Shown here: piece after piece, positions 19,217-37,997 of the stretch | Layout: each line of letters starts with the position of its first letter | Position numbering within the stretch: position 1 is the stretch's first letter | Assembly (NCBI GenBank): GCA_028819255.1 | Contig: JAPPMB010000054.1 | Location: 46,323 to 110,322, forward strand | Length of the DNA stretch: 64,000 nucleotides | Direction: 5' to 3' | Origin: Bryobacterales bacterium | Lineage (GTDB): Bacteria > Acidobacteriota > Terriglobia > Bryobacterales > UBA6623 | Position numbers and translations under genes: made by a program | The notes under the pieces: generated by a model | Told to the model about the DNA's origin: nothing | Database searches by the model: none | Seen by the model: the letters and a program-made list of their open reading frames with translations, nothing else

Positions 19217-20176
19217 TCAGTTCACAGCGTCCGGCTCGGGAGCGTAGTAGCCGCTCCGCACCCTGACGGTCGCGTTGCGGTGCCGTGTGCGCACCTCGAC
19301 GGTGTGAAACGCCCCGTCGTTGACGAACTGGCTGGGGGAATACAGGATGAAGTACTGGTGGCGCAGTTCGTTGGCGATGTTCGCGAAGGACTGCTGAAGG
19401 TCGCGCGCCTGGAACGGATGGAACGCGACCCCTCCCGTCTCGCGGGCGAAGCGGCGGAGCGTCTTGTCCCCGCCCTGGGCGGCGCCGCTGCGGTTCGTCG
19501 AAATCGTGTAGACCACCGACTCCGCCTTGTGGGCCATCTCGAGGGCGTCCTCCCTTGTGACGGTGCTGCGGTTGTCCTCGCCGTCGCCGATGACCACCAG
19601 CGCCCTCCGGAACTGCTCCTTGGGCTGGTCCTCGGGAAGCTTGTCACGGCAGGCGTAGTAGATGGCGTCGTACAGGGCGGTGCCCCCGCCGGCACGCAGC
19701 CTTCGCACGCCGTCGGCGAGCTCCTCGATGTCGCTCGTGTAGTCGACGATCAGCTCCGCCCTCGTGTCGAAGCTGACCAGGAACGCGCGGTCGTGCTCCT
19801 CCGCGAGCACTCCCTGCAGGAACTCGATTGCCGCCTCCTGCTCGAACTTGAAGCGGGCGCGGATCGAATTGCTGGTGTCCAGGATGACCCCGATCCGCAG
19901 GGGCAGATCGCTCTCGCGATCGAACTCGCGGATCTCCTGCTGCCAGCCGTCGTCGTAGACCTCGAAGTCCTCGCGCCCCAGATCGGTGATGAAGCGGTTC
20001 TTCCGGTCCGTGACCGTGAACAGGAGGGGGACGCGGGCCACGTCGACCTTGATGACGTCCGATTCGGCGCCCGTGTAGACAGGCTCGTATCTTTCCTCGC
20101 CGCTCTCCTGCGCTTGCGCCCACACCGCCGCGAGCAGTGCGGTGGCCGCCGTCAGCGCGGCGAAACGCTTGAACAT
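19217..20176 (-). CDS. Secreted VWFA-related domain protein
   Basis: Exported protein of 319 residues with a signal peptide (MFKRFAALTAATALLAAVWA). The rest is a von Willebrand A domain of the VWFA-related type frequent in Acidobacteriota. The N-terminal part has VPLLFTVTDRKNRFITDL. The metal-binding motif DTSNS (D-x-S-x-S) follows IGVILDTSNS. Later come GGGTALYDAIYYACRD and VVIGDGEDNRS. The end LRHQYFILYSPS and VRSGYYAPE is typical of the family. Its function is unknown; VWA domains bind proteins through a divalent metal. The start is only seven bases after the upstream rluA-type gene stop, and a TATAAT straddles that junction. Confidence 0.88.
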   Translation of the reverse strand: MFKRFAALTAATALLAAVWAQAQESGEERYEPVYTGAESDVIKVDVARVPLLFTVTDRKNRFITDLGREDFEVYDDGWQQEIREFDRESDLPLRIGVILDTSNSIRARFKFEQEAAIEFLQGVLAEEHDRAFLVSFDTRAELIVDYTSDIEELADGVRRLRAGGGTALYDAIYYACRDKLPEDQPKEQFRRALVVIGDGEDNRSTVTREDALEMAHKAESVVYTISTNRSGAAQGGDKTLRRFARETGGVAFHPFQARDLQQSFANIANELRHQYFILYSPSQFVNDGAFHTVEVRTRHRNATVRVRSGYYAPEPDAVN

Positions 20177-20183
20177 GTCCTGA

Positions 20184-21161
20184 TTATAGGCCCAAGGCAA
20201 GGAGTGCGGCCCGGAAATCACGGGGCGGGGGCGCTTCGAACCGCACCGCCTCTCCGGTCTCCGGGTGAACGAAGCCCAGCGACCGGGCGTGCAGCAGATA
20301 CCGTCCCGGCGCCGGCGCACCGGCGCGATTCCGCCGCGCGCCGTACAGGCTGTCCCCGACGACCGGGTGGCCCGCACTGGAAAGGTGGACCCGGACCTGA
20401 TGGGTGCGGCCGGTGTGGATTCGCACCTCGACCAGGGCGCTCTGTCCGCCGGACCGGAGAGCCCGGACATCGCTGACGGCCTCCCTCCCGCCGAGCGCCG
20501 CTGCCATCTTGACCCGGTTGCGCTTGTCGCGGCGGATCGGCATTTCGAGGCGCAGCCACCACTTGCCGTTCCGCATCACCGCACGTCCGTGGCGCAGGAG
20601 TCTGGCGTCGTCATGGGGGTCGGACGGCAAGCGGCCCTCCACGGCCGCCCAGTAGAGCTTGGACACCTCCCGACGCTGGAACTGTTTCTGGAGCCGGCCG
20701 TGGGCACGGTCGTGCTTGGCGACAACCATCACGCCCGTCGTGAAGCGGTCGAGCCGGTGCACGATGCCCGGACGCAACGCGCCCGAAACGCCGGACAGGC
20801 GCGCGAAGCGGTGCAGCAGCGCGTTGACGAGCGTTCCGGACGCGGTGCCGGCTCCCGCATGCACGCTCATGCCGGCCTCCTTGTCGATGACTGCCAGATG
20901 ATCGTCCTCGTAGACGACGGAGAGATCGATGGCCTCGGGCCGGGCCGCTAGGGGAGGAGGGTCGGCCGGCTCCACGTCCACCGCCTCCGCGGGCCGCAGC
21001 CTGCGGGACGCCTTGCGCACCTGGGTGCCGTCGATCCGCACCCGCCCTTCCCGGATCCACGCCCCGACCCGAGAGCGGCTCACGTCCTCGAGCCTGTCGG
21101 CGAGGAACCGGTCCAGACGCTTTCGATGATCTCCCCTGCCCGCCGTGAGCCGCATGGCCAT
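20184..21161 (-). CDS. RluA-family 23S rRNA pseudouridine synthase
   Basis: Cytoplasmic RNA-modifying enzyme of 325 residues. Residues ~10-75 form an S4-type RNA-binding domain (KRLDRFLADRLEDVSRSRVG). The catalytic domain has VVYEDDHLAVIDKEAGMSVH and the active-site motif GIVHRLDRFTTGVMVVAK, with the catalytic Asp in HRLD. IHTGRTHQVRVHL and HPVVGDSLYG are the remaining RluA signatures. RluD is the best-known member, but RluC/RluD assignment needs comparison, so no symbol is given. It is probably cotranscribed with the VWA gene. Confidence 0.93.
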   Translation of the reverse strand: MAMRLTAGRGDHRKRLDRFLADRLEDVSRSRVGAWIREGRVRIDGTQVRKASRRLRPAEAVDVEPADPPPLAARPEAIDLSVVYEDDHLAVIDKEAGMSVHAGAGTASGTLVNALLHRFARLSGVSGALRPGIVHRLDRFTTGVMVVAKHDRAHGRLQKQFQRREVSKLYWAAVEGRLPSDPHDDARLLRHGRAVMRNGKWWLRLEMPIRRDKRNRVKMAAALGGREAVSDVRALRSGGQSALVEVRIHTGRTHQVRVHLSSAGHPVVGDSLYGARRNRAGAPAPGRYLLHARSLGFVHPETGEAVRFEAPPPRDFRAALLALGL

Positions 21162-21240: not shown

Positions 21241-21252
21241 ATGAATATTCAT
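21241..21252. promoter_or_regulatory. 12-bp palindrome over the argF start codon, possible ArgR site
   Basis: ATGAATATTCAT is a perfect palindrome that includes the argF start codon. It contains both ArgR-like half-sites TGAAT and ATTCA, but with no spacer, whereas the known ARG box has four bases between them. The operon encodes ArgR, so an operator is expected here. It is a candidate only. Confidence 0.4.
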
Positions 21253-22203
21253 GCGCCACCCTTTGGTGCTTACCGAGCTGTCAAGGCCCATCACTTCCTC
21301 CGCGACAGCGATCTCTCGGCCGATGAGTTGCGGAGCCTGCTCGACCTCGCGCGGCGAGTGAAGATTCAGCCCGAGCTCTACCGCGACGCCCTCAGGCACC
21401 GGGCGGTCGCCCTGCTCTTCGAGAAGCCGTCCCTTCGGACGCGCATGACGATCGAGCTGGCCGCGCTGCAGCTGGGCGGGTTCGGCGTCTTCCAGGATCA
21501 CCGCGACGGGCGCATCGGCGAGAGGGAGCCGGCGCGCGACATCGCCCGGAACCTGGACCGCTGGTTCGACGCGATCGTGGCGCGGACCTACTCCCACAAG
21601 ACGCTGGAGTCGCTGGCCGCCTGGTCGAAGGTGCCGGTCATCAACGCCCTCAGCGAGTCGTACCATCCGTGCCAGGCCTTGGCGGACTTCCTCACCGTGC
21701 TGGAAGTCTACGGATCCTTCGAGGGCCTCAAGATGGCCTACGTCGGCGACGGGAACAACGTGGCCCACTCGCTCATGCACAGCGCCGCCCAGCTGGGTGT
21801 CTCGATCTCCATATGCTCGCCTGCGGGCTATGGGCCGCGGCCGGATGATCTGGCGCTCGCGCGCGCGGCGGCGGCGCGAAGCGGCAGTGCCGTGGAGGTG
21901 GTCTCGGACATCTGGGAGGCCGTCGACGGCGCCGCGGCCGTGTACACCGACGTGTGGACCAGCATGGGCTGGGAGGATGAGACCCAGCAGCGGCGGATCG
22001 CATTCTCGGACTATCAGGTGACGGACGAGGTGATGGCGGCCGCCCGGGACGGGGCGGTCTTCATGCACTGCCTCCCGGCGCTTCGCGGCCAAGAGGTGAG
22101 CGATTCCGTCATCGAGTCGGCCCAGTCCGTCGTGTTCGACCAGGCTGAGAACCGACTGCACGCGCACAAGGCGCTGCTGCTGATGATGCTGGGAGGAAGC
22201 TAG
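21241..22203 (+). CDS. argF: Ornithine carbamoyltransferase
   Basis: Cytoplasmic arginine-biosynthesis enzyme that makes citrulline from ornithine and carbamoyl phosphate, 320 residues. The carbamoyl phosphate motif is EKPSLRTR (61-68). HPCQALADFLT and the ornithine motif MHCLPALRG (near 275-281) are also present. First gene of the argF-argG-argH-argR operon. The ATG lies in a 12-bp palindrome and there is hardly any leader or ribosome site, so initiation may be unusual. TTGACC at 21204-21209 and TAATCA at 21226-21231 could serve as a promoter. Confidence 0.95.
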   Translation: MNIHAPPFGAYRAVKAHHFLRDSDLSADELRSLLDLARRVKIQPELYRDALRHRAVALLFEKPSLRTRMTIELAALQLGGFGVFQDHRDGRIGEREPARDIARNLDRWFDAIVARTYSHKTLESLAAWSKVPVINALSESYHPCQALADFLTVLEVYGSFEGLKMAYVGDGNNVAHSLMHSAAQLGVSISICSPAGYGPRPDDLALARAAAARSGSAVEVVSDIWEAVDGAAAVYTDVWTSMGWEDETQQRRIAFSDYQVTDEVMAAARDGAVFMHCLPALRGQEVSDSVIESAQSVVFDQAENRLHAHKALLLMMLGGS

Positions 22204-22204
22204 G

Positions 22205-23442
22205 GTGCCCATGGCCATGAAACCAAAGAAAGTGGCTCTGGCCTACTCGGGGGGCCTGGACACGTCGATCATCATTCCGTGGCTCCGGGAGAACTATGGA
22301 TCGGAGGTGGTCGCCGTGTGCGGCGACGTCGGTCAGGGTTCCGGTGAGTTGGAAGGTCTGGAACAGAAGGCCCTCGCAAGCGGCGCGCGGGAGGTGTATG
22401 TCGAAGACGTTCGCGAGGAGTTCGTTCGCGACTACGTTTGGCCGATGGTGCGGTCCGGCGCAGTCTACGAGCACAAGTACCTTCTGGGCACCTCCATCGC
22501 ACGGCCGCTGCTGGCGAAGGTGCAGGTCGAGGCCGCCCTCCGCACCGGTTGCGACGCCCTCGCTCACGGAGCGACGGGCAAGGGCAACGACCAGGTCCGA
22601 TTCGAACTTGCATACAAGGCGTTGGCGCCCCACCTTCCCGTGATCGCCCCATGGCGCGAATGGGACATCAGCTCCCGGGAGGACGCCATTGACTACGCCC
22701 GCCGCCACCGCATCCCGATTCAGCAGACCAAGGAGAAGATCTACAGCCGGGACGCCAACCTGTGGCACATCTCCCACGAGGGCGCCGAGCTCGAGGACCC
22801 GGCCAACGCCCCGTCGGACAAGGTCTGGACGCTTTCGGTCGATCCGGCGGCCGCACCGGCAGCGGGCACGGTCGTGGAGATCGCTTTCGAGCAGGGCACG
22901 CCGGTGGCGGTTGGGGACGAGCGGATGCCGCCCGCGGCCGTCGTCGAGACGCTCAACCGGGCTGGGTGCGACCACGGAATCGGCAGGATCGACCTGGTCG
23001 AGAACCGCTTCGTAGGCATGAAGTCGCGGGGCTGCTACGAGACGCCGGGAGGGACGATCCTGACGGCGGCCCACCGCGAGCTGGAGGCCCTGACGCTTGA
23101 TCGCGCCACTCTGCACTACAAGCAGAAGGTGGCGCTCGACTACGCCGAGCTCGTCTACGACGGCAAGTGGTTCACCTCCCTGCGCGAGGCTCTGGACGGC
23201 TTCGTCGAGAAGACGCAGCGCCATGTGACGGGATCGGTGACGCTCCGGCTGTGCCAGGGTCGCATCGATGTGCTCTGCCGGACCTCGCCCTACTCGCTCT
23301 ACGCCCCGGAGATCGCCAGCTTCACGATGGGGGACGAGTTCGAACAGCGGGACGCCGAGGGATTCATCAACCTGACGAGTCTGCCGATCCGGGTCCGCGC
23401 TTCCGTGCAGGGAGATCTGGTCGGCGGGAAGGGCGCCGGAAA

Positions 23443-23446
<4 letters not shown>
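22205..23446 (+). CDS. argG: Argininosuccinate synthase
   Basis: Cytoplasmic enzyme that joins citrulline and aspartate with ATP, 413 residues. The ATP-binding motif is VALAYSGGLDTSI. GHGATGKGNDQVRFE in the family appears here as AHGATGKGNDQVRFE, and KSRGCYETPGGTIL closes the citrulline/aspartate site. GTG 22205 is chosen because GGAGGAA ends six bases before it; ATG 22211 is the alternative. The gene begins one base after the argF stop and overlaps argH by four bases. Confidence 0.96.
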
Positions 23447-24848
<1,402 letters not shown>

Positions 24849-24852
<4 letters not shown>

Positions 24853-25283
24853 AGACGCGTCGGCAGCGTGAGATTCTAGGCCTGATCCGGTCGTCCCGGC
24901 TCCGCACGCAGGAAGAGCTTTCCTCCGCGCTCTCGAAGCGGAAGATCGAGGTCAGCCAGGGAACGCTGTCCAGAGACCTGCGGGAGCTCGGCATCGTGAA
25001 GACCGCCGACGGGTACGCGCTGCCGAACCTGGTCGACGCCGCCGCCGCGACGCGGAACAACCTGTCCGCGGTCGCCGCCCAGTTCCTGACCGGCATGCGC
25101 ACGGCCCACAATCTGGTCGTCCTGCGCACTGCTCCGGGCGGAGCGAACGCCCTCGCCCAGCATCTGGATGCGGCGGACTGGCCCGACGTGGTGGGAACCA
25201 TCGCGGGCGACGACACGATCTTCGCGGCCACGGAGGACCCGGAGACGGCGCTCAGGGTGCTCCGGAGGCTGGAGGCTCTCTAG
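24849..25283 (+). CDS. argR: Arginine repressor
   Basis: Arginine-sensing DNA-binding hexamer protein of 144 residues. The winged helix at the N-terminus has the recognition helix VSQGTLSRDLRELGIVK. The C-terminal oligomerisation and arginine-binding part has APGGANALAQHLD and GTIAGDDTIF. The GTG start overlaps the argH stop. Lying last in the operon that begins with argF, it probably represses its own transcription. No argC, argJ, argB or argD is near, so those steps must be encoded elsewhere. Confidence 0.95.
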
Positions 25284-26978: not shown

Positions 26979-28667
26979 ATGAGAACCGTAGGGGGCAGAT
27001 TGGCGCACTTCCGTGGATGGGGCCTGGGCGCCTTGGCATGCGCCCTTGGGTGCGGTGCGGCCATGGCGCAGCAGGGGTCCGCACTGGACTGCTCGGCGGT
27101 CGCCGCGCCGCGGCCGGCGTATGCCGGCGGCATCGCGGAACCCCTACCGGACATCCTGCTCACCTGCGAGCCGGACGCACCCGCAGCCGGCGTGCCGACG
27201 GGGGAGTTCCGGCTGTCGGTGTCGGTCTCGCTGAACACGAGCGTGACCAATGCCCTCGTGCCGGACAGCGACGTCACGGATGCGGTTCTGGAGATCCTGC
27301 CAGGCGACTGCGACAGCCTGGAGCCCGCTGGCGAGGCATCCGGACCCTGCGATTCCTCGTCCCGCGGCGTCGAGGGTCCACAGACCGGGCGGCTGGCATC
27401 GGTCCGCACGATCGAGTGGCCCGACGTGAGGATTCCGGGTCCCGGAGCCGGCGTCCCCGCCGCTTCGGGCGAGGCGGTCGCCAGACTCCGGATTCGGGGC
27501 ATTCGTGCCAACGCGGCGCAGCTGCGGCTTGCGGGCGGCTCCGTCCAGACGAGCCTTCCCGTGATCGCGACAGTGGCGGTTCGCACCGACTCCGCGGTCA
27601 CCGTCCGCAACGGCACGATTCCCATCGCCTACCCCAAACCGGCCCTCGGACTGTCCGTGGTGGGGGAGGAGTCGTCCTCCGCCTGCTCCGGAGACGGACG
27701 CGGGCTGGCGTCGATTCATCTTCGGGAGGGATTCGCCAGTGCCTTCCGGGCCGGTTTCGGCGGCGAGAGCGAGTCCCCCGCCACGCGGGTGATGCTGGAG
27801 TTCGAGGGAGTGCCCGAAGGCACCGCTGTCAGCCTCCCCGCGGCCGCGGCGTGCCACCAGCCCGCATTCGACGGCAGCGATCCCCAGTCCGCCGACGCGC
27901 TCGTGCTGGGCCTGGTCAGCGGCCACGACGCCATGGGTCGCGGCGGGAGCGCGAGCCTTGGCCCGCTCTCATCCGCACCCAGCGTTCCCCTGGATCTCGT
28001 GGCGGGTCGCGGCCGGGCGGTCTACGAGGTGCAGTCGGAGGACGCTTCCCGGCTGGAGGACTGCCATCTGCCGGTCGGTCTTGACGCGGGTCCGGAGAGC
28101 GCAGCCCAGGCGCGCGCCACGGTGTCGGCGAGCCTGGCGCCCCGGAGCGACGTCTTCGTGGCGAGCAGCGATCTGGCCGGCTCTAGGTTCGCAGGTCCGT
28201 CCCGCAATGCCAGGACGGTGATCGATCTGGCCCCCTGCGGCACCACTCTCCTGTTTCCGTTCGTGACGAACCAGGCGGGGTTCACGACAGGCATGGTGAT
28301 CACGCACGGCTCCCGCCAGGCCCTCGCCGGCTCGATTGACGGCCAGGCCGGATCGTGCGACCTGCACTACTACGGCGCCGACTCCGAGGGCAGCGGGATC
28401 CTTCTCGTGCAGCACTCCACGGTGATCGAGGCCGGGGAGCAGCTGACGTTCACGCTGTCCGAAGGGGACCCGGTCCGGAACATTCTCGGAGTCGAGCAGT
28501 TCCAAGGCTATGTGATGGCCACTTGCGGCTATCCGAACGCCCGCGGATACGCCTTCATCGCAGACGGATTCGGCGGACTCGCGGATCTGGCGATGGGTTA
28601 CCTCGCACCGGAGGTGCAGCTGGGCTCCGACGGGAAGCGCAAGGTGCCGGCGGGGAACGGGCCGTGA
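26979..28667 (+). CDS. Secreted protein, twin paralogue A, with LFPFVT-type C-terminal domain
   Basis: Exported protein of 562 residues of unknown function. A signal peptide with a hydrophobic stretch (GLGALACALGCGAAMAQ) is followed by alternating beta-type sequence with few charged patches and several paired cysteines. The last ~150 residues start at CGTTLLFPFVTNQAGF and contain FQGYVMATCGYP and a Gly-Phe-Ala-type end. I know this domain from secreted proteins of Acidobacteriota, though its role is not established. The next gene, 37 bases downstream, is a full-length diverged paralogue. Both stand before a MoxR operon. Confidence 0.75.
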   Translation: MRTVGGRLAHFRGWGLGALACALGCGAAMAQQGSALDCSAVAAPRPAYAGGIAEPLPDILLTCEPDAPAAGVPTGEFRLSVSVSLNTSVTNALVPDSDVTDAVLEILPGDCDSLEPAGEASGPCDSSSRGVEGPQTGRLASVRTIEWPDVRIPGPGAGVPAASGEAVARLRIRGIRANAAQLRLAGGSVQTSLPVIATVAVRTDSAVTVRNGTIPIAYPKPALGLSVVGEESSSACSGDGRGLASIHLREGFASAFRAGFGGESESPATRVMLEFEGVPEGTAVSLPAAAACHQPAFDGSDPQSADALVLGLVSGHDAMGRGGSASLGPLSSAPSVPLDLVAGRGRAVYEVQSEDASRLEDCHLPVGLDAGPESAAQARATVSASLAPRSDVFVASSDLAGSRFAGPSRNARTVIDLAPCGTTLLFPFVTNQAGFTTGMVITHGSRQALAGSIDGQAGSCDLHYYGADSEGSGILLVQHSTVIEAGEQLTFTLSEGDPVRNILGVEQFQGYVMATCGYPNARGYAFIADGFGGLADLAMGYLAPEVQLGSDGKRKVPAGNGP

Positions 28668-28704
28668 TCGGCGGGCGGCCTGGACGAACTGCGGAAGCGA
28701 TCCG

Positions 28705-30498
28705 ATGAAACGAAGGTTCAGCCGCCGGCGCGGTCGGGCAAGCCCCTGGGCCCTCATTGCCTTGGTGTGGTCCGGCGCGCCGTTCGGCCAGATCGCCACG
28801 TCGAGGGCCGGGTCCGACGCGGTCGAGATCCGCTGTTCCGCAACCTCCTCGGCGCCCATCGTGCGCATCGAGGGCACCCGGGAACTCGTCGGGGACGTGG
28901 TCGTGACGTGCCATTCCGCGAGAGCGGCTTCCGCGTTTGGGCAGCGCGAGTTCCTTGATGTCGACGTGGTTCTCTCGCTGAACGTGGATTGGGGCAACAG
29001 CACGCACTTCGGGCTGGGAGCGGACACCGTCGACGCGGTCCTCGTCGTGAACGACGACAACTGCATGGACGGGGATTCGCCGGACGTGTCCGGCCCCTGC
29101 GCTCACCGGAACGGCAGCGGGCAGGGGCCGGCCCTCGCCCGCCTGGACGCCTCACGCCGCACCCTTCGCTGGACAGGAATCAGGTTCCCCGTGCCTGGGG
29201 CCGCGGTCGGCGGGCCAAACTCGATTTCCAACTGCACGGTGCAGTTCGGCGTGGCCGGCGACTGCCACCCCGAAACGACGACGGTCCGGCTGACGAATCT
29301 GCGCGCAAACGCCTCGCAGCTCGGCGCAAGCGGGCAGGCGACCGGATCTGCCGTCGGAATCGAGGCCTCACTCTCCCTGCGATCTGCGGACGCCGCCTTG
29401 CGGACGGAGGACACCTCCCTGCGCGTGGCCGAGGCGGCGACGGGCCTGGCGGCGGACGCCGCCTCTCCCGAACAGGACCGGATCTGTTCGCACGGCCAGT
29501 CCGTCGCCGAGGTCACTGTCTCGGAAGGGTTCGCTTCCGCGTTCAAGACCGCCGGCGAGCCTTCGTTCCGGCCGGGCGACCCGGGATGGAGAGAGGGATT
29601 CTATCCCCATTCCGGGGACGCAGCCGGCCAGGACCCGGCGCTGCGCGGCACCAGGCTGCGGATTGCGCTGGCGAGGATCCCCCGCGGTGTCTCCGTGATC
29701 GTGCCTTCGCTCGTCAGCTGCCCGGGTCCCGGGTCGGCGGGCGGCCTGGGGCTTGCGCTCGTGAGCAACGCGTCGTCCGGAGGTCTGGGGGGCTCGGTGG
29801 CGCGGGGCCAGTCCACCGACCGCCCGCTGCAGATGAGTTCCGACCGGGAGGTCTCCGCGCTCTACGAGGTCGCGAGGTCGAACCCGCTGGCGCGGGAGCG
29901 CTGCACCATACCGTTCCGGTTCTCTCGTTCAGCGGGAGCGGACGAGCTGTTCCGCGGCGGGACGATCAGTGTCTCCGCGAGTCTCGCGCCATTCCGCACG
30001 GCCTCGGCCAGCCAGTCGGGCGTCAGCGAACGCTTCACCGGTGTCCGGGTCAGTCCGAGGCCCGAATTCCGGCTCAGCGGGTGCGGAACGACGCTCTTCT
30101 TCCCGTTCGTCACAAGCCAGCGCAACTTCGACACGGCCGTGGTGATCGCCAACACGTCCGCCGATCCGCTGGGGACCCGCCACCAGTCCGGCGCGTGCCA
30201 GCTGCGGTACCACGGGTCCGGGCTTGATGAATCTGCGGACTCTGCAATCCAGCAGTCCTCGGAGATCCAGGCTGGCGGCCAGCTCGCATTCACCCTTTCC
30301 GGCGGCAGCCAGACCCACGGCCTGGCGCCGCTCACCGGCTTTCAGGGCTATCTGGTGGCCGAGTGCGGATTCCAGCACGGCCACGGCTTCGCGTTTGTCA
30401 CTGAACAGCTGAACGGGACCGCCGTTCTGGCCCAGGGCTATCTCGCCCAGATTGTCCGCGGGCCGGAGGAGGTGGGCGCTGCCGGCGGCCTCCCGTGA
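28705..30498 (+). CDS. Secreted protein, twin paralogue B, with LFPFVT-type C-terminal domain
   Basis: Exported protein of 597 residues, paralogous to the one before over its whole length. Shared landmarks are SGPC, an aromatic-rich (R)IEW/RWTGIRFPVPGA segment, (N)LRANAAQL/NLRANASQL, EGFASAF, and the C-terminal CGTTLFFPFVTSQRNF with FQGYLVAECGF. The N-terminus is basic, then hydrophobic (PWALIALVWSGAPFGQ), fitting export. Divergence between the two is large, so the duplication is old and both copies have been kept, pointing to different partners or a heteromeric surface structure (inference). GGAAG precedes the ATG. Confidence 0.75.
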   Translation: MKRRFSRRRGRASPWALIALVWSGAPFGQIATSRAGSDAVEIRCSATSSAPIVRIEGTRELVGDVVVTCHSARAASAFGQREFLDVDVVLSLNVDWGNSTHFGLGADTVDAVLVVNDDNCMDGDSPDVSGPCAHRNGSGQGPALARLDASRRTLRWTGIRFPVPGAAVGGPNSISNCTVQFGVAGDCHPETTTVRLTNLRANASQLGASGQATGSAVGIEASLSLRSADAALRTEDTSLRVAEAATGLAADAASPEQDRICSHGQSVAEVTVSEGFASAFKTAGEPSFRPGDPGWREGFYPHSGDAAGQDPALRGTRLRIALARIPRGVSVIVPSLVSCPGPGSAGGLGLALVSNASSGGLGGSVARGQSTDRPLQMSSDREVSALYEVARSNPLARERCTIPFRFSRSAGADELFRGGTISVSASLAPFRTASASQSGVSERFTGVRVSPRPEFRLSGCGTTLFFPFVTSQRNFDTAVVIANTSADPLGTRHQSGACQLRYHGSGLDESADSAIQQSSEIQAGGQLAFTLSGGSQTHGLAPLTGFQGYLVAECGFQHGHGFAFVTEQLNGTAVLAQGYLAQIVRGPEEVGAAGGLP

Positions 30499-30531: not shown

Positions 30532-31566
<1,035 letters not shown>

Positions 31567-31596: not shown

Positions 31597-32505
31597 ATGC
31601 CCATGGACGTCAAGGAGTTCACACGCAGCGTAGCCAGGAAGATCCGCCTCATTGAGATCCAGACGAGCAAGGCCGTGGACGACGTGCTGGCCGGAGAGTA
31701 CAGCAGCGTCTTCAAGGGCAGCGGAATGGAGTTCGAGGAGGTCCGCGAGTACGCCCCCGGGGACGAGATCCGGAGCATCGACTGGAACGTCACGGCCCGG
31801 ATGGGCAGGCCGTTCGTCAAGCGCTACGTCGAGGAACGGGAGCTGACGGTCTGGCTGCTCGTCGACCTGTCCGCCTCCGGGGCGTTCGGTAGCCTCAGCC
31901 AGCTCAAGAACGAGGCGGCGGCCGAGTTCTGCGCGCTGCTGGCGTTTGCCGCGATCCGCAACAACGACAAGGTCGGGCTGATCGTCTTCACCGACCGGGT
32001 CGAGCTCTCAATTCCCCCCAGCAAGGGACGGACCCATGTGCTGCGGCTGATACGGGAACTGCTGCGATTCGAGCCGGAGGGGCGGGGAACCGACCTCGCC
32101 GTCGCACTTGAGTACCTGGGCCGGGTGACGCACAAGCGCGGCGTCGTGTTCCTGGTTTCGGACTTTCTTTCGCCGGGGGTGCTTGCAGAGCAGAGCGGCA
32201 AGCAGCTTCGTGTGCTGGCGAGACGGCATGATCTGATCGCGGTGACCGTGGGGGACCGGCGGGAGCGGGAACTGCCCGACATCGGTCTCATCGAGCTCGA
32301 GGATGCCGAGACTGGAGAGTGCGTGCTGATCGACACGTCCAGTGCGCGAGTGCGGCGAGACTACGCTGCTGACGCGAGGAGCCGAGGCGCGGAGCGGCAG
32401 AGCTTCTTCCGCTCCACGGGCATTGACGAAGTGGAAGTCATGACGGGGCAGGACTACGTGCGCGATCTGCGGAAGCTGTTCCGGAGACGGGAGGGGCGGC
32501 GTTGA
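31597..32505 (+). CDS. DUF58 protein
   Basis: Protein of 302 residues with the DUF58 signature FEEVREYAPGDEIRSIDWNVTAR. A VWA-like fold follows, starting at WLLVDLSASGAFG, where the D-x-S-x-S metal motif is present. Always found beside MoxR ATPases, probably as part of a complex that prepares a client protein. It overlaps the next gene by four bases. Confidence 0.92.
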   Translation: MPMDVKEFTRSVARKIRLIEIQTSKAVDDVLAGEYSSVFKGSGMEFEEVREYAPGDEIRSIDWNVTARMGRPFVKRYVEERELTVWLLVDLSASGAFGSLSQLKNEAAAEFCALLAFAAIRNNDKVGLIVFTDRVELSIPPSKGRTHVLRLIRELLRFEPEGRGTDLAVALEYLGRVTHKRGVVFLVSDFLSPGVLAEQSGKQLRVLARRHDLIAVTVGDRRERELPDIGLIELEDAETGECVLIDTSSARVRRDYAADARSRGAERQSFFRSTGIDEVEVMTGQDYVRDLRKLFRRREGRR

Positions 32506-33524
32506 CCGCCCGGACCCGGGCGCGCACCCCTCGGGCCGGGTGGCCGGTCCCGCGTCGGCTGGCCCTTGTCGCGTGCTTTGCGGTCGGCGCGTGCGCAACG
32601 AGTGACGAGGAGCCCGCGAATCCCGAACCGGCGGTCCTGCGGGTGACGGAGAGCGGCGGAGCGCGCCTGACTCTGGCCCTCGACCGGGACGCCCTCACGA
32701 CGGCCGGGACCGCGGCGCTGCGCCTCGAGATCGAGAGCGCGGAATCGGACTCTGTCGAATTCCCGGATTCCGAAGACGGATTCGGCGAATTCGCCGTGGT
32801 GCGGGACGAAGCCGCAGGGGACCGCCTGCTGGAGGACGGCCGCGTGGCGCGCGGACGCGAATACGTCCTGCAGCCGTTTCTGCCGGGCGAATACGAGCTT
32901 CCGGCGCTCAAGGTCGTGCTCAACGGATCCACGGAAGTCTTGACCGAACCCGTTGCGATCACCGTGGAGAGCGTACTGGAGGATCCCGAGGACGCGGAAC
33001 TGCGGGAGATTGGGGACCCGGTGGACATGCCCGTTCCCTGGTGGTGGTGGGCGTTGGGCGGGGCCGGACTCGCCGCCGCCATCGCCGCGACGGCCTGGTG
33101 GCTGCGCCGTCGCAAGGCGGCGCGGCGGGCATCCCGCGTGGTGACGCCCCATGCAGCGGCACTCGCCGCCCTGGACGCACTCTTGGCCGCCGGGCTGCCC
33201 GGTCCCGAACAGCTCGGGGCCTTCTTTCTGAGGCTGTCGGACATTGTCAGGCGATACGTCGAGGAGAGGTTCGGGCTGCGCGCTCCCGAGCAGACGACGG
33301 AGGAGTTTCTCGCGGCGATGGCCAAGTCGCCGTCGATCCAAGGCGATCACCAGAGGCTGCTGCGCGGCTTTCTTGAGCTGGCCGACATGGTCAAGTTCGC
33401 AAAGTTCGCGCCCCGCAGGGAGGAGATCGATGCCTCGGTGGATGCGGCGAGGCGATTCGTCCGGCAGACTATTCCGGACGACCTCGTCGCCGCAGACAAG
33501 GACCGCGGCCGGAGTGCGCGCTGA
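32502..33524 (+). CDS. BatD/DUF4381-like membrane lipoprotein
   Basis: Envelope protein of 340 residues. A basic N-terminus leads to LALVACFAVGAC, a possible lipobox, so it may be lipid-anchored. An extracytoplasmic beta-rich part (~25-175) is followed by a transmembrane helix (WWWWALGGAGLAAAIAATAWWL) and a helical cytoplasmic tail with LGAFFLRLSDIVRRYVEERFG, as in DUF4381 and BatD-like proteins of MoxR operons. The start TTG 32502 overlaps the DUF58 stop. The VWA (BatA/BatB-type) gene normally found next is missing: decayed DNA follows. Confidence 0.8.
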   Translation: MTARTRARTPRAGWPVPRRLALVACFAVGACATSDEEPANPEPAVLRVTESGGARLTLALDRDALTTAGTAALRLEIESAESDSVEFPDSEDGFGEFAVVRDEAAGDRLLEDGRVARGREYVLQPFLPGEYELPALKVVLNGSTEVLTEPVAITVESVLEDPEDAELREIGDPVDMPVPWWWWALGGAGLAAAIAATAWWLRRRKAARRASRVVTPHAAALAALDALLAAGLPGPEQLGAFFLRLSDIVRRYVEERFGLRAPEQTTEEFLAAMAKSPSIQGDHQRLLRGFLELADMVKFAKFAPRREEIDASVDAARRFVRQTIPDDLVAADKDRGRSAR

Positions 33525-37348: not shown

Positions 37349-37997
37349 CTACGTTCTGTACATTTTGTGCGTGATTCGAGTGGATCCGGCACTGATGCAG
37401 GCGAGACGCCACCACGGTGGCCCGCGGGAGATCTCGAAGGCGGCTGCGTCCGGACGCACGTGCTGCCGGATGCAGATCTGGGATCCGCCCACCTTCTGCG
37501 GCGGCGTCGGGATGCCCACACAGTTCGCCCGCCGGATGCGGATCGCCGTCCAGCTCAGACGCACCCCTCGCACCCTGAGGCGCGTTCGGACCAGATGCAC
37601 TGCATGGTATGCCAGCACGGTGATCAACAGGTGCCCCGAGTTCCGCCGGTCCGGCCGACGCCGGATGGGCCGCAGGCCCCACGTTGATTGCAGTTCCCGG
37701 AAGGTGCTGTCCACTTCGGTCAGTGTCCAATAGGTGCGCAGCACCCGCTCCACATCCCAGTCGGCATGGCTGGTGCGCAGCACGTAGGCATGCGCCGCCG
37801 CTTCCGAGGCGGCGTGCTGTGGCTTGTGGCGGAATGTGACCGCCTCGGCCTTGCCCTTCTCACACGGGCTCACCCGCATCTCGCACTGGCTCGCGATCCG
37901 CTCTTGCTTTTCGATCAGCCGCCCCACGTTGCGCTGCACCTTCTCGAAATGCTCCAGGTAGCCCGGCTTGGAGACGCCCGCGTGCAGGCGATGGCAT
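37349..37997 (-). pseudogene. Transposase remnant, IS1634-like C-terminal part
   Basis: A minus-strand frame opens from about 37997 and reads through KPGYLEHFEKVQRNVGRLIE, then AYVLRTSHADWDVERVLRTY and TLTEVDSTFRELQSTWGLRP. This is the C-terminal half of an IS1634/IS4-group DDE transposase, with the Glu of the catalytic triad expected in the EVDSTF segment. The upstream catalytic part is missing: a stop lies just upstream at ~38000. No terminal inverted repeats could be recognised, so the element is dead. Confidence 0.75.

Follow-up and report, generated by a model that had tools for sequence, protein, structure and literature searches.

Two genes for large exported proteins, here called P1 and P2, stand in tandem immediately upstream of a MoxR operon in a 64,000-nucleotide stretch of contig JAPPMB010000054.1 (assembly GCA_028819255.1, a Bryobacterales bacterium of the phylum Acidobacteriota), hereafter the window. 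The locus raises the question of whether this position marks the twins as clients of a MoxR–DUF58–BatD-like complex, a possibility raised in the initial annotation, or whether the gene order has another cause. We consider it fairly probable that the twins are a tandem-duplicated pair from a family of exported beta-sandwich proteins, stabilised by disulfides and found across the order, and that the pair now stands before a MoxR operon, an arrangement that would bring co-expression rather than clientship. Below, G numbers denote sampled genomes and L numbers the loci examined; coordinates are collected in Table 1.

P1 and P2 are true tandem paralogues of exported type with three domains in common. 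BLASTP aligned them at 31% identity over 560 residues (E = 2e-58), spanning all domains, and a search of the genome, an assembly listed as 98% complete, returned these two as its sole matches. Read from its likely ATG, P1 opens with the signal peptide MRTVGGRLAHFRGWGLGALACALGCGAAMA-QQ, start and signal peptide both being judged by eye and not by a predictor. Lipoprotein anchoring of P1 was considered and rejected, as the 'ALGC' near the signal peptide misfits the lipobox and was absent, by eye, from the two orthologues compared. The early description of the pair as tandem exported paralogues is thus borne out, and that of an LFPFVT-type C-terminus in part: the motif is common to both twins, but it forms the opening strand of a domain some 125 residues long at the C-terminal end, not the terminus itself. 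The genes are closely spaced, with 37 nucleotides from the P1 stop to P2 and 33 from P2 to MoxR if MoxR starts at the ATG at 30532, a spacing that makes a common transcript of the twins with MoxR, DUF58 and the BatD-like gene probable in the window's genus. A promoter and terminator scan gave no signal exceeding chance, and an Rfam scan of the window matched a tRNA alone.

The closeness to MoxR proved real and conserved within the genus. P1, P2 and MoxR were contiguous and co-oriented in nine of ten congeneric loci, the tenth contig (G002) ending inside P2; all nine congeners with enough contig thus keep the arrangement. The distance between MoxR and DUF58 in these nine was 0.04–0.4 kb in two, 1.4 kb in two and 4.3–5.2 kb in three, and DUF58 was absent from the 2–3 kb of contig remaining in the other two; in five congeners, MoxR was nearer to the twins than to DUF58. 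As a separate observation, with gene names given by eye, a reversed 812-residue gene resembling an ABC permease lies between MoxR and DUF58 in L039 and L041, and an ATPase/TOPRIM-like pair parts the two in L042, where P1, P2 and MoxR are still together. The presence of other genes between MoxR and DUF58 implies that the region tolerates insertions, as neutral hitch-hiking would have it: the pair would then owe its position before MoxR to chance and have no functional connection to it. This weaker form of the favoured explanation, with which it is compatible, is possible but not what we expect, given that the order is constant in nine of nine congeners despite P2 orthologues only 37–53% identical to the window's P2.

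Outside the genus, we compared two samples of loci. The first comprised 30 loci from 27 genomes, the best matches of the family search. The second comprised 40 loci, the best-scoring among the matches listed that lay outside the taxonomic family of the window's genome and had not been seen before; the gene also had to lie at least 10 kb from the contig start, and this sample is biased towards sequences close to the profile. None of the 70 loci (30 + 40), several of which are cut by contig ends, showed MoxR near the family gene. Conversely, DUF58 orthologues of 64–72% identity were present in four genomes of sister genera (G012, G013, G014 and G016), and in all four a MoxR gene (69–76%) precedes DUF58 and a BatD-like gene follows it. 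No family match occurred upstream of any of these four operons within the 3.5–8.9 kb of sequence available. As all four lack the twins, the pair most likely joined a pre-existing operon; judged by these gene orders, the MoxR operon most likely existed before the twins became linked to it.

These distributions bear directly on clientship. In its strict form this holds that P1 and P2 were recruited to the MoxR–DUF58–BatD complex of the genus, which would mature, fold or metal-load them. MoxR–VWA systems do mature partner proteins in other bacteria, according to two published accounts (PMC13036017, PMC3893208); P1, P2 and MoxR stay contiguous in nine of nine congeners while DUF58 is 1.4–5.2 kb from MoxR in five, and the scan found no terminator-like site between P2 and MoxR. 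Set against this are the 70 loci and the four sister-genus operons just described, as well as the rates of evolution. Pairwise ratios of nonsynonymous to synonymous substitutions (dN/dS) among congeners were 0.04–0.09 for MoxR (15 pairs), well below those of the twins, at 0.17–0.34 for P1 (16 pairs; premature starts of some P1 frames may inflate individual values) and 0.16–0.31 for P2 (15 pairs). The pairs came from six congeners (G001, G003, G005, G006, G009 and G010) plus the P1 pair G002–G007, without the window's own genes or the congeners of greater divergence. Since MoxR changes so much more slowly than the twins, it is probably not specialised on them. Clientship is weakened and unproven; it is possible, but we judge it unlikely. 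The occurrence of twins away from MoxR, named at the outset as what would refute the link, was largely seen for the family as a whole, whereas the orthologous twin pair was never seen away from MoxR.

The dN/dS values also indicate purifying selection on both copies in the congeners compared, and the phylogeny agrees that they are distinct. In a tree of 49 rows, from which proteins shorter than 500 or longer than 800 residues were excluded, P1 orthologues (11 rows) and P2 orthologues (10 rows) formed separate clades, each with support of 100/100, and both were nested in a clade exclusive to the window's genus (97/95). On this topology, the P1 and P2 clades predate the radiation of the genus, and the suggestion that the copies are separate and have each been kept holds. 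Tandem copies in G013, G016 and G014 clustered each within its own genome, and tandem duplication therefore probably occurred several times in the family. Two further observations concern its architecture. A 1571-residue protein of G013 (L049, 7866–12578) has two family-like N-terminal segments and repeated pieces of the C-terminal domain, apparently an internal multiplication of the family, and proteins of 896–1471 residues in L107, L108 and L109 match the family only over about residues 40–440, which suggests that its two halves recombine.

The family is widespread in the order and lacks a name. A profile of 41 rows found it in 222 of 250 genomes drawn from Bryobacterales and in 11 of 396 drawn across the phylum, three of these within the order; absences are soft, as the searches scored few candidates per genome. 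Titles of named relatives carried the labels Bryobacterales, Bryobacteraceae, Sulfopaludibacter, Terriglobia and other Acidobacteria, and the nearest relatives presumably derive from marine sponges, to judge from their series of metagenome-assembled genomes. P1 and P2 matched no Pfam or NCBIfam family at E <= 1, and the 41 aligned members gave only scattered matches, the best at E = 0.005 and each in at most two members. Identity with DUF5719 was rejected, as the match (E = 0.079, in one of 41 C-terminal domains) was not significant. A literature search, covering parts of the sources, recognised no description of the family.

Structure prediction gave the family an outline. The AlphaFold2 model of P2, built from 41 sequences, was nearly all beta, with a mean predicted local distance difference test score (pLDDT) of 77.9 and a predicted template modelling score of 0.74. 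Structure comparison of residues 40–460 pointed to the paired immunoglobulin-like (Ig-like) domains of cell-surface proteins, with the antigen I/II C-terminal domain 3opu as the top match (Z 11.0, 275 residues, 5.2 A, 5% identity) and PrgB, integrin and pilin domains ranking below it. Modelled alone (pLDDT 83.4), the C-terminal domain matched TM1070 (1nc7; Z 12.4, 105 of 116 residues, 2.4 A), then the Anabaena sensory rhodopsin transducer (ASRT; Z 8.4), with the following rows at 5.8. The predicted architecture is thus two Ig-like domains followed by a TM1070/ASRT-like sandwich. A sequence search of the PDB with the family gave nothing significant (best E = 0.8).

The domain was not assigned to the ASRAH superfamily, which includes ASRT and TM1070: the predicted model has the fold, but neither a sequence-profile match nor the Trp and SHExxC hallmarks were seen. 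PF07100 matched none of the 41 C-terminal domains at E <= 1, and the strand-1 Trp and SHExxC signature were not seen in every second alignment row, the rows inspected. In the same rows, the Asn ending strand 2 was present in P2 and most relatives, with His in the P1 clade. The account of the superfamily in PMC2739507 gives a Trp opening strand 1 and an Asn ending strand 2 as hallmarks; it also reports the authors' prediction that the superfamily binds small molecules, probably sugars, and includes extracellular versions. By analogy with the fold, we infer that the C-terminal domain may bind a partner, glycan or protein, outside the cell.

Cysteines were patterned across the family, with twelve columns recurring in the 41 rows. 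Cys 44 and 69 occurred together in 40 rows and were both missing from one; 339 and 400 occurred together in 20 rows with zero exceptions, 120 and 132 in 32 with one exception, and 177 and 187 in 11 with one exception. Cys 261, 460, 498 and 554 were present in all 41 rows and hence cannot be paired by covariation. The covarying pairs, counted over related and not independent rows, fit disulfides formed in an oxidising compartment.

We then considered where the family gene lies elsewhere, and its neighbours pointed to the type II secretion system (T2SS). Clustering of neighbouring open reading frames (ORFs) in the first 30 loci outside the genus found at least four gsp genes in 11 and a propeller protein in 18. 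Of the second 40 loci, several of whose contigs end before the gsp side, 25 had gspD, 21 had four or more gsp genes and 38 had a propeller protein. Pfam assigned T2SSG, T2SSK, a PilN-like GspL and the GspD secretin to the gsp operon of L055. On the other flank stands a protein of about 1050–1290 residues with propeller-like repeats, Big_1 domains and a TIGR03437 C-terminal domain, and in many loci of the second sample an LGFP/Big_1 protein lies between gspD and the family gene. Because gsp-linked copies occur in three different families of Bryobacterales (G012/G013, G018 and the f3 genomes), the gsp-linked place would be the older of the two and the place beside MoxR the newer, and the T2SS may export or assemble the family in much of the order. 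A further observation concerns the start region of the family gene in L055–L073 (family f3), where many frames run on as 'HKEKEMADFRK' across what should be the start codon. From its KEKE part, a GGAG-rich leader may be conserved ahead of the ATG, perhaps serving as a strong ribosome-binding site.

Within the window's genus, the secretion genes are mostly missing. GspG (PF08334) was found in two of nine genomes of the genus searched (G004 and G008) and in all seven other genomes of the taxonomic family, and it was not found in the window's own genome. The same two of 11 genus genomes had a T2SS-type GspD (48–49% identity over the C-terminal part); the other nine gave secretin matches of E = 1e-22 or weaker. 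The gsp operon of G004 and G008 lies elsewhere in the genome, not adjoining the twins. No full-length propeller-Ig protein occurred in eight genus genomes, whose matches covered its last 150–260 residues or a short propeller stretch. As far as draft assemblies allow, the T2SS has likely been lost in most sampled genomes of the genus. These genomes also speak to the idea that the family has a structural role in the T2SS itself, as a secretin cap or surface extension, and is not its cargo. Although the family gene often follows gspD and shares its orientation, constraint acts on P1 and P2 in congeners with no GspG found and only distant secretins, and G004 and G008 retain a T2SS while their twins stand elsewhere; a structural role is therefore quite improbable.

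Members outside the genus share a C-terminal pentapeptide that the twins lack. Among 74 such members, Glu occupied position −5 in 68, Leu −3 in 62 and His, Asn or Gln −1 in 65, and 55 ended in E-x-L-x-[HNQ], compared with 4 of the 45,987 positions inside these proteins; these counts, from L044–L074 and L199–L238, are not independent events owing to relatedness and include several near-duplicates (for example L057/L058, L050/L051, L215/L220 and L222/L227) and one protein cut at its N-terminus (L064). The E-x-L-x-x ending occurred in 61 proteins whether members were assigned by best hit (n = 72) or by domain profile (n = 74); the best-hit set includes the row of L074, a locus with no family match in the first sample, and this row lacks the motif and is probably not the family gene. 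Entropy was 0.62 bits at position −5 and above 3 bits at −12 to −20, a variable, non-hydrophobic linker. Eight genomes from other families of the phylum had Glu at −5 in seven and E-x-L in six, with L114 (G102), an N-terminal match only, excluded. The motif occurred in none of the 19 congeneric proteins, nor in P1 or P2, and in none of 58 ORFs of the propeller protein or 25 of the LGFP protein. At the end of non-family ORFs of at least 300 residues, many of them spurious, it was found in 0 of 824 across 80 loci.

Tag loss in the genus is one event. The P1 proteins of G008 and G004, just the two congeners with a T2SS, end in AEDLR and SEAGR, two cases that are possibly decayed tags. Three other accounts of the conserved terminus were rejected. 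A cause at the DNA or RNA level does not fit the mixed codons (Glu GAG 14, GAA 19; five Leu codons) of 33 genes picked for having the motif. A proteome-wide tag does not fit G029, where a DNA pattern for E-x-[L/F]-x-[H/N] followed by TAA, with no other stop codon and no Gln endings covered, gave 11 matches against 28 in the reversed control; of the 11, one is the family gene and the others end frames of 12 to 305 codons. A tripartite C-terminal sorting signal of the GlyGly-CTERM type was not found in the terminal 20 positions. The pentapeptide is put forward as a candidate sorting tag. A bolder proposal makes it a new type of short signal, for sorting or docking, that hands the family to the Bryobacterales T2SS or to the propeller-Ig neighbour at the surface; the genus would have shed it while mostly losing the T2SS, and the relocated twins would use another route, with the MoxR complex partly maturing them. 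We regard this proposal as rather unlikely.

Returning to the favoured explanation, each twin would have a signal peptide, then a stalk made of two Ig-like domains and, at the C-terminal end, a sandwich from the TM1070/ASRT class of folds. Its site of action would be extracytoplasmic, either on the cell surface or within the matrix. In the ancestor of the genus, a surface or extracellular protein often linked to the T2SS would have come to stand before the MoxR operon, which it most likely joined as an operon already formed. Duplication, loss of the terminal tag, retention of two diverging copies and loss of the T2SS by most of the genus would be the further steps, with no fixed order implied among these and the relocation. 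The twins of the window's genus would now reach their place by a route other than the T2SS or stay periplasmic, and sharing an operon with MoxR would most likely give co-expression, not clientship.

Several observations weigh against this account. That P1, P2 and MoxR keep the same order in all nine congeners is compatible with a functional connection. In G011, G014, G015 and G016, which belong to the window's taxonomic family, the gsp operon and the family gene are on separate contigs or far apart (0.7 Mb in G014), and gspD was unseen in 15 of 40 loci of the second sample, only some of which are cut short. The genus keeps the family though most of its genomes are without a T2SS, so export by that system is not obligatory. 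The Ig-like matches represent a very common fold, with root-mean-square deviations of 3 to 18 A; identity was 5–8% for antigen I/II and up to 18% over about 130 residues for integrin alpha-X. When hhalign compared the C-terminal domain and four ASRT sequences from the phylum, using small profiles, the probability was 0.4%; as no ASRT profile matched, the idea of binding derives from the fold and nothing else.

These results indicate that a neighbourhood can mislead: the MoxR link is genuine, yet in our sample it is confined to one genus. Gene order instead ties an unnamed family to type II secretion, and a family that 222 of 250 sampled Bryobacterales genomes encode, and that no Pfam or NCBIfam model matched here, gains a testable identity.

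Table 1. Twin genes and downstream MoxR operon in the window (positions counted from the first letter of the window)
Feature	Position	Strand	Basis
P1, exported three-domain protein	26979..28667	+	ORF opens 26928; likely start ATG 26979
P1 C-terminal domain plus tail	28212..28664	+	alignment
P2, paralogue of P1	28705..30498	+	sequence comparison; AlphaFold2 model pLDDT 77.9
P2 C-terminal domain plus tail	30058..30495	+	predicted TM1070/ASRT-like beta-sandwich, pLDDT 83.4, Z 12.4 to 1nc7
MoxR AAA+ ATPase	30532..31566	+	PF07726 E 4.6e-64; ORF opens TTG 30520, first ATG 30532
DUF58 protein (VWA-like)	31597..32505	+	PF01882 E 4.4e-85
BatD/DUF4381-like membrane protein	32502..33524	+	PF14316 E 4.7e-07, above cut-off; PF13584 (BatD) E 0.0042, below cut-off

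Elsewhere in the window, a VWFA-related acidobacterial protein (TIGR03436, E = 1.7e-69) is encoded at 19220–20317 on the minus strand, near an apparent argF-argG-argH-argR cluster at 21241–25283 (names by eye). A remnant resembling an IS1634-family transposase lies at 37352–37939, also on the minus strand (NF033559 E = 1.8e-14, below cut-off; no Pfam match).

Among known systems, the predicted paired Ig-like beta-sandwiches of the twins resemble in arrangement, over about 275 residues, the C-terminal domains of antigen I/II proteins (SpaP, SspB, BspA) and Ig-like adhesins and pilins. Antigen I/II proteins differ in belonging to another phylum, in sharing 5–8% identity and in their isopeptide bonds (named in a PDB title), where the twins have cysteine pairs and no wall-anchor signal was seen in them. 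The C-terminal domain shares its predicted fold with TM1070 and ASRT (PF07100), and P2 and most relatives share the Asn at the end of strand 2, but the family has no profile match, Trp or SHExxC and carries two conserved cysteines instead. Proteins with the TIGR03437 Solibacter C-terminal domain are represented by the propeller-Ig neighbour, which ends in that domain in the three scanned, whereas P1 and P2 do not have it. T2SS exoproteins with C-terminal sorting are known from the GlyGly-CTERM/rhombosortase system, as set out in PMC3237569 and PMC6219818, and a conserved C-terminal signal on T2SS-linked exoproteins is common to both; GlyGly-CTERM combines a Gly/Ser motif, a hydrophobic stretch and a basic tail, while the family has five residues with neither hydrophobic nor basic part. 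As for MoxR–DUF58–BatD operons, P1 and P2 match no VWA or BatD model in Pfam, and their family was not found near MoxR in the loci sampled outside the genus, but the operon 3′ of the twins has the parts of these systems.

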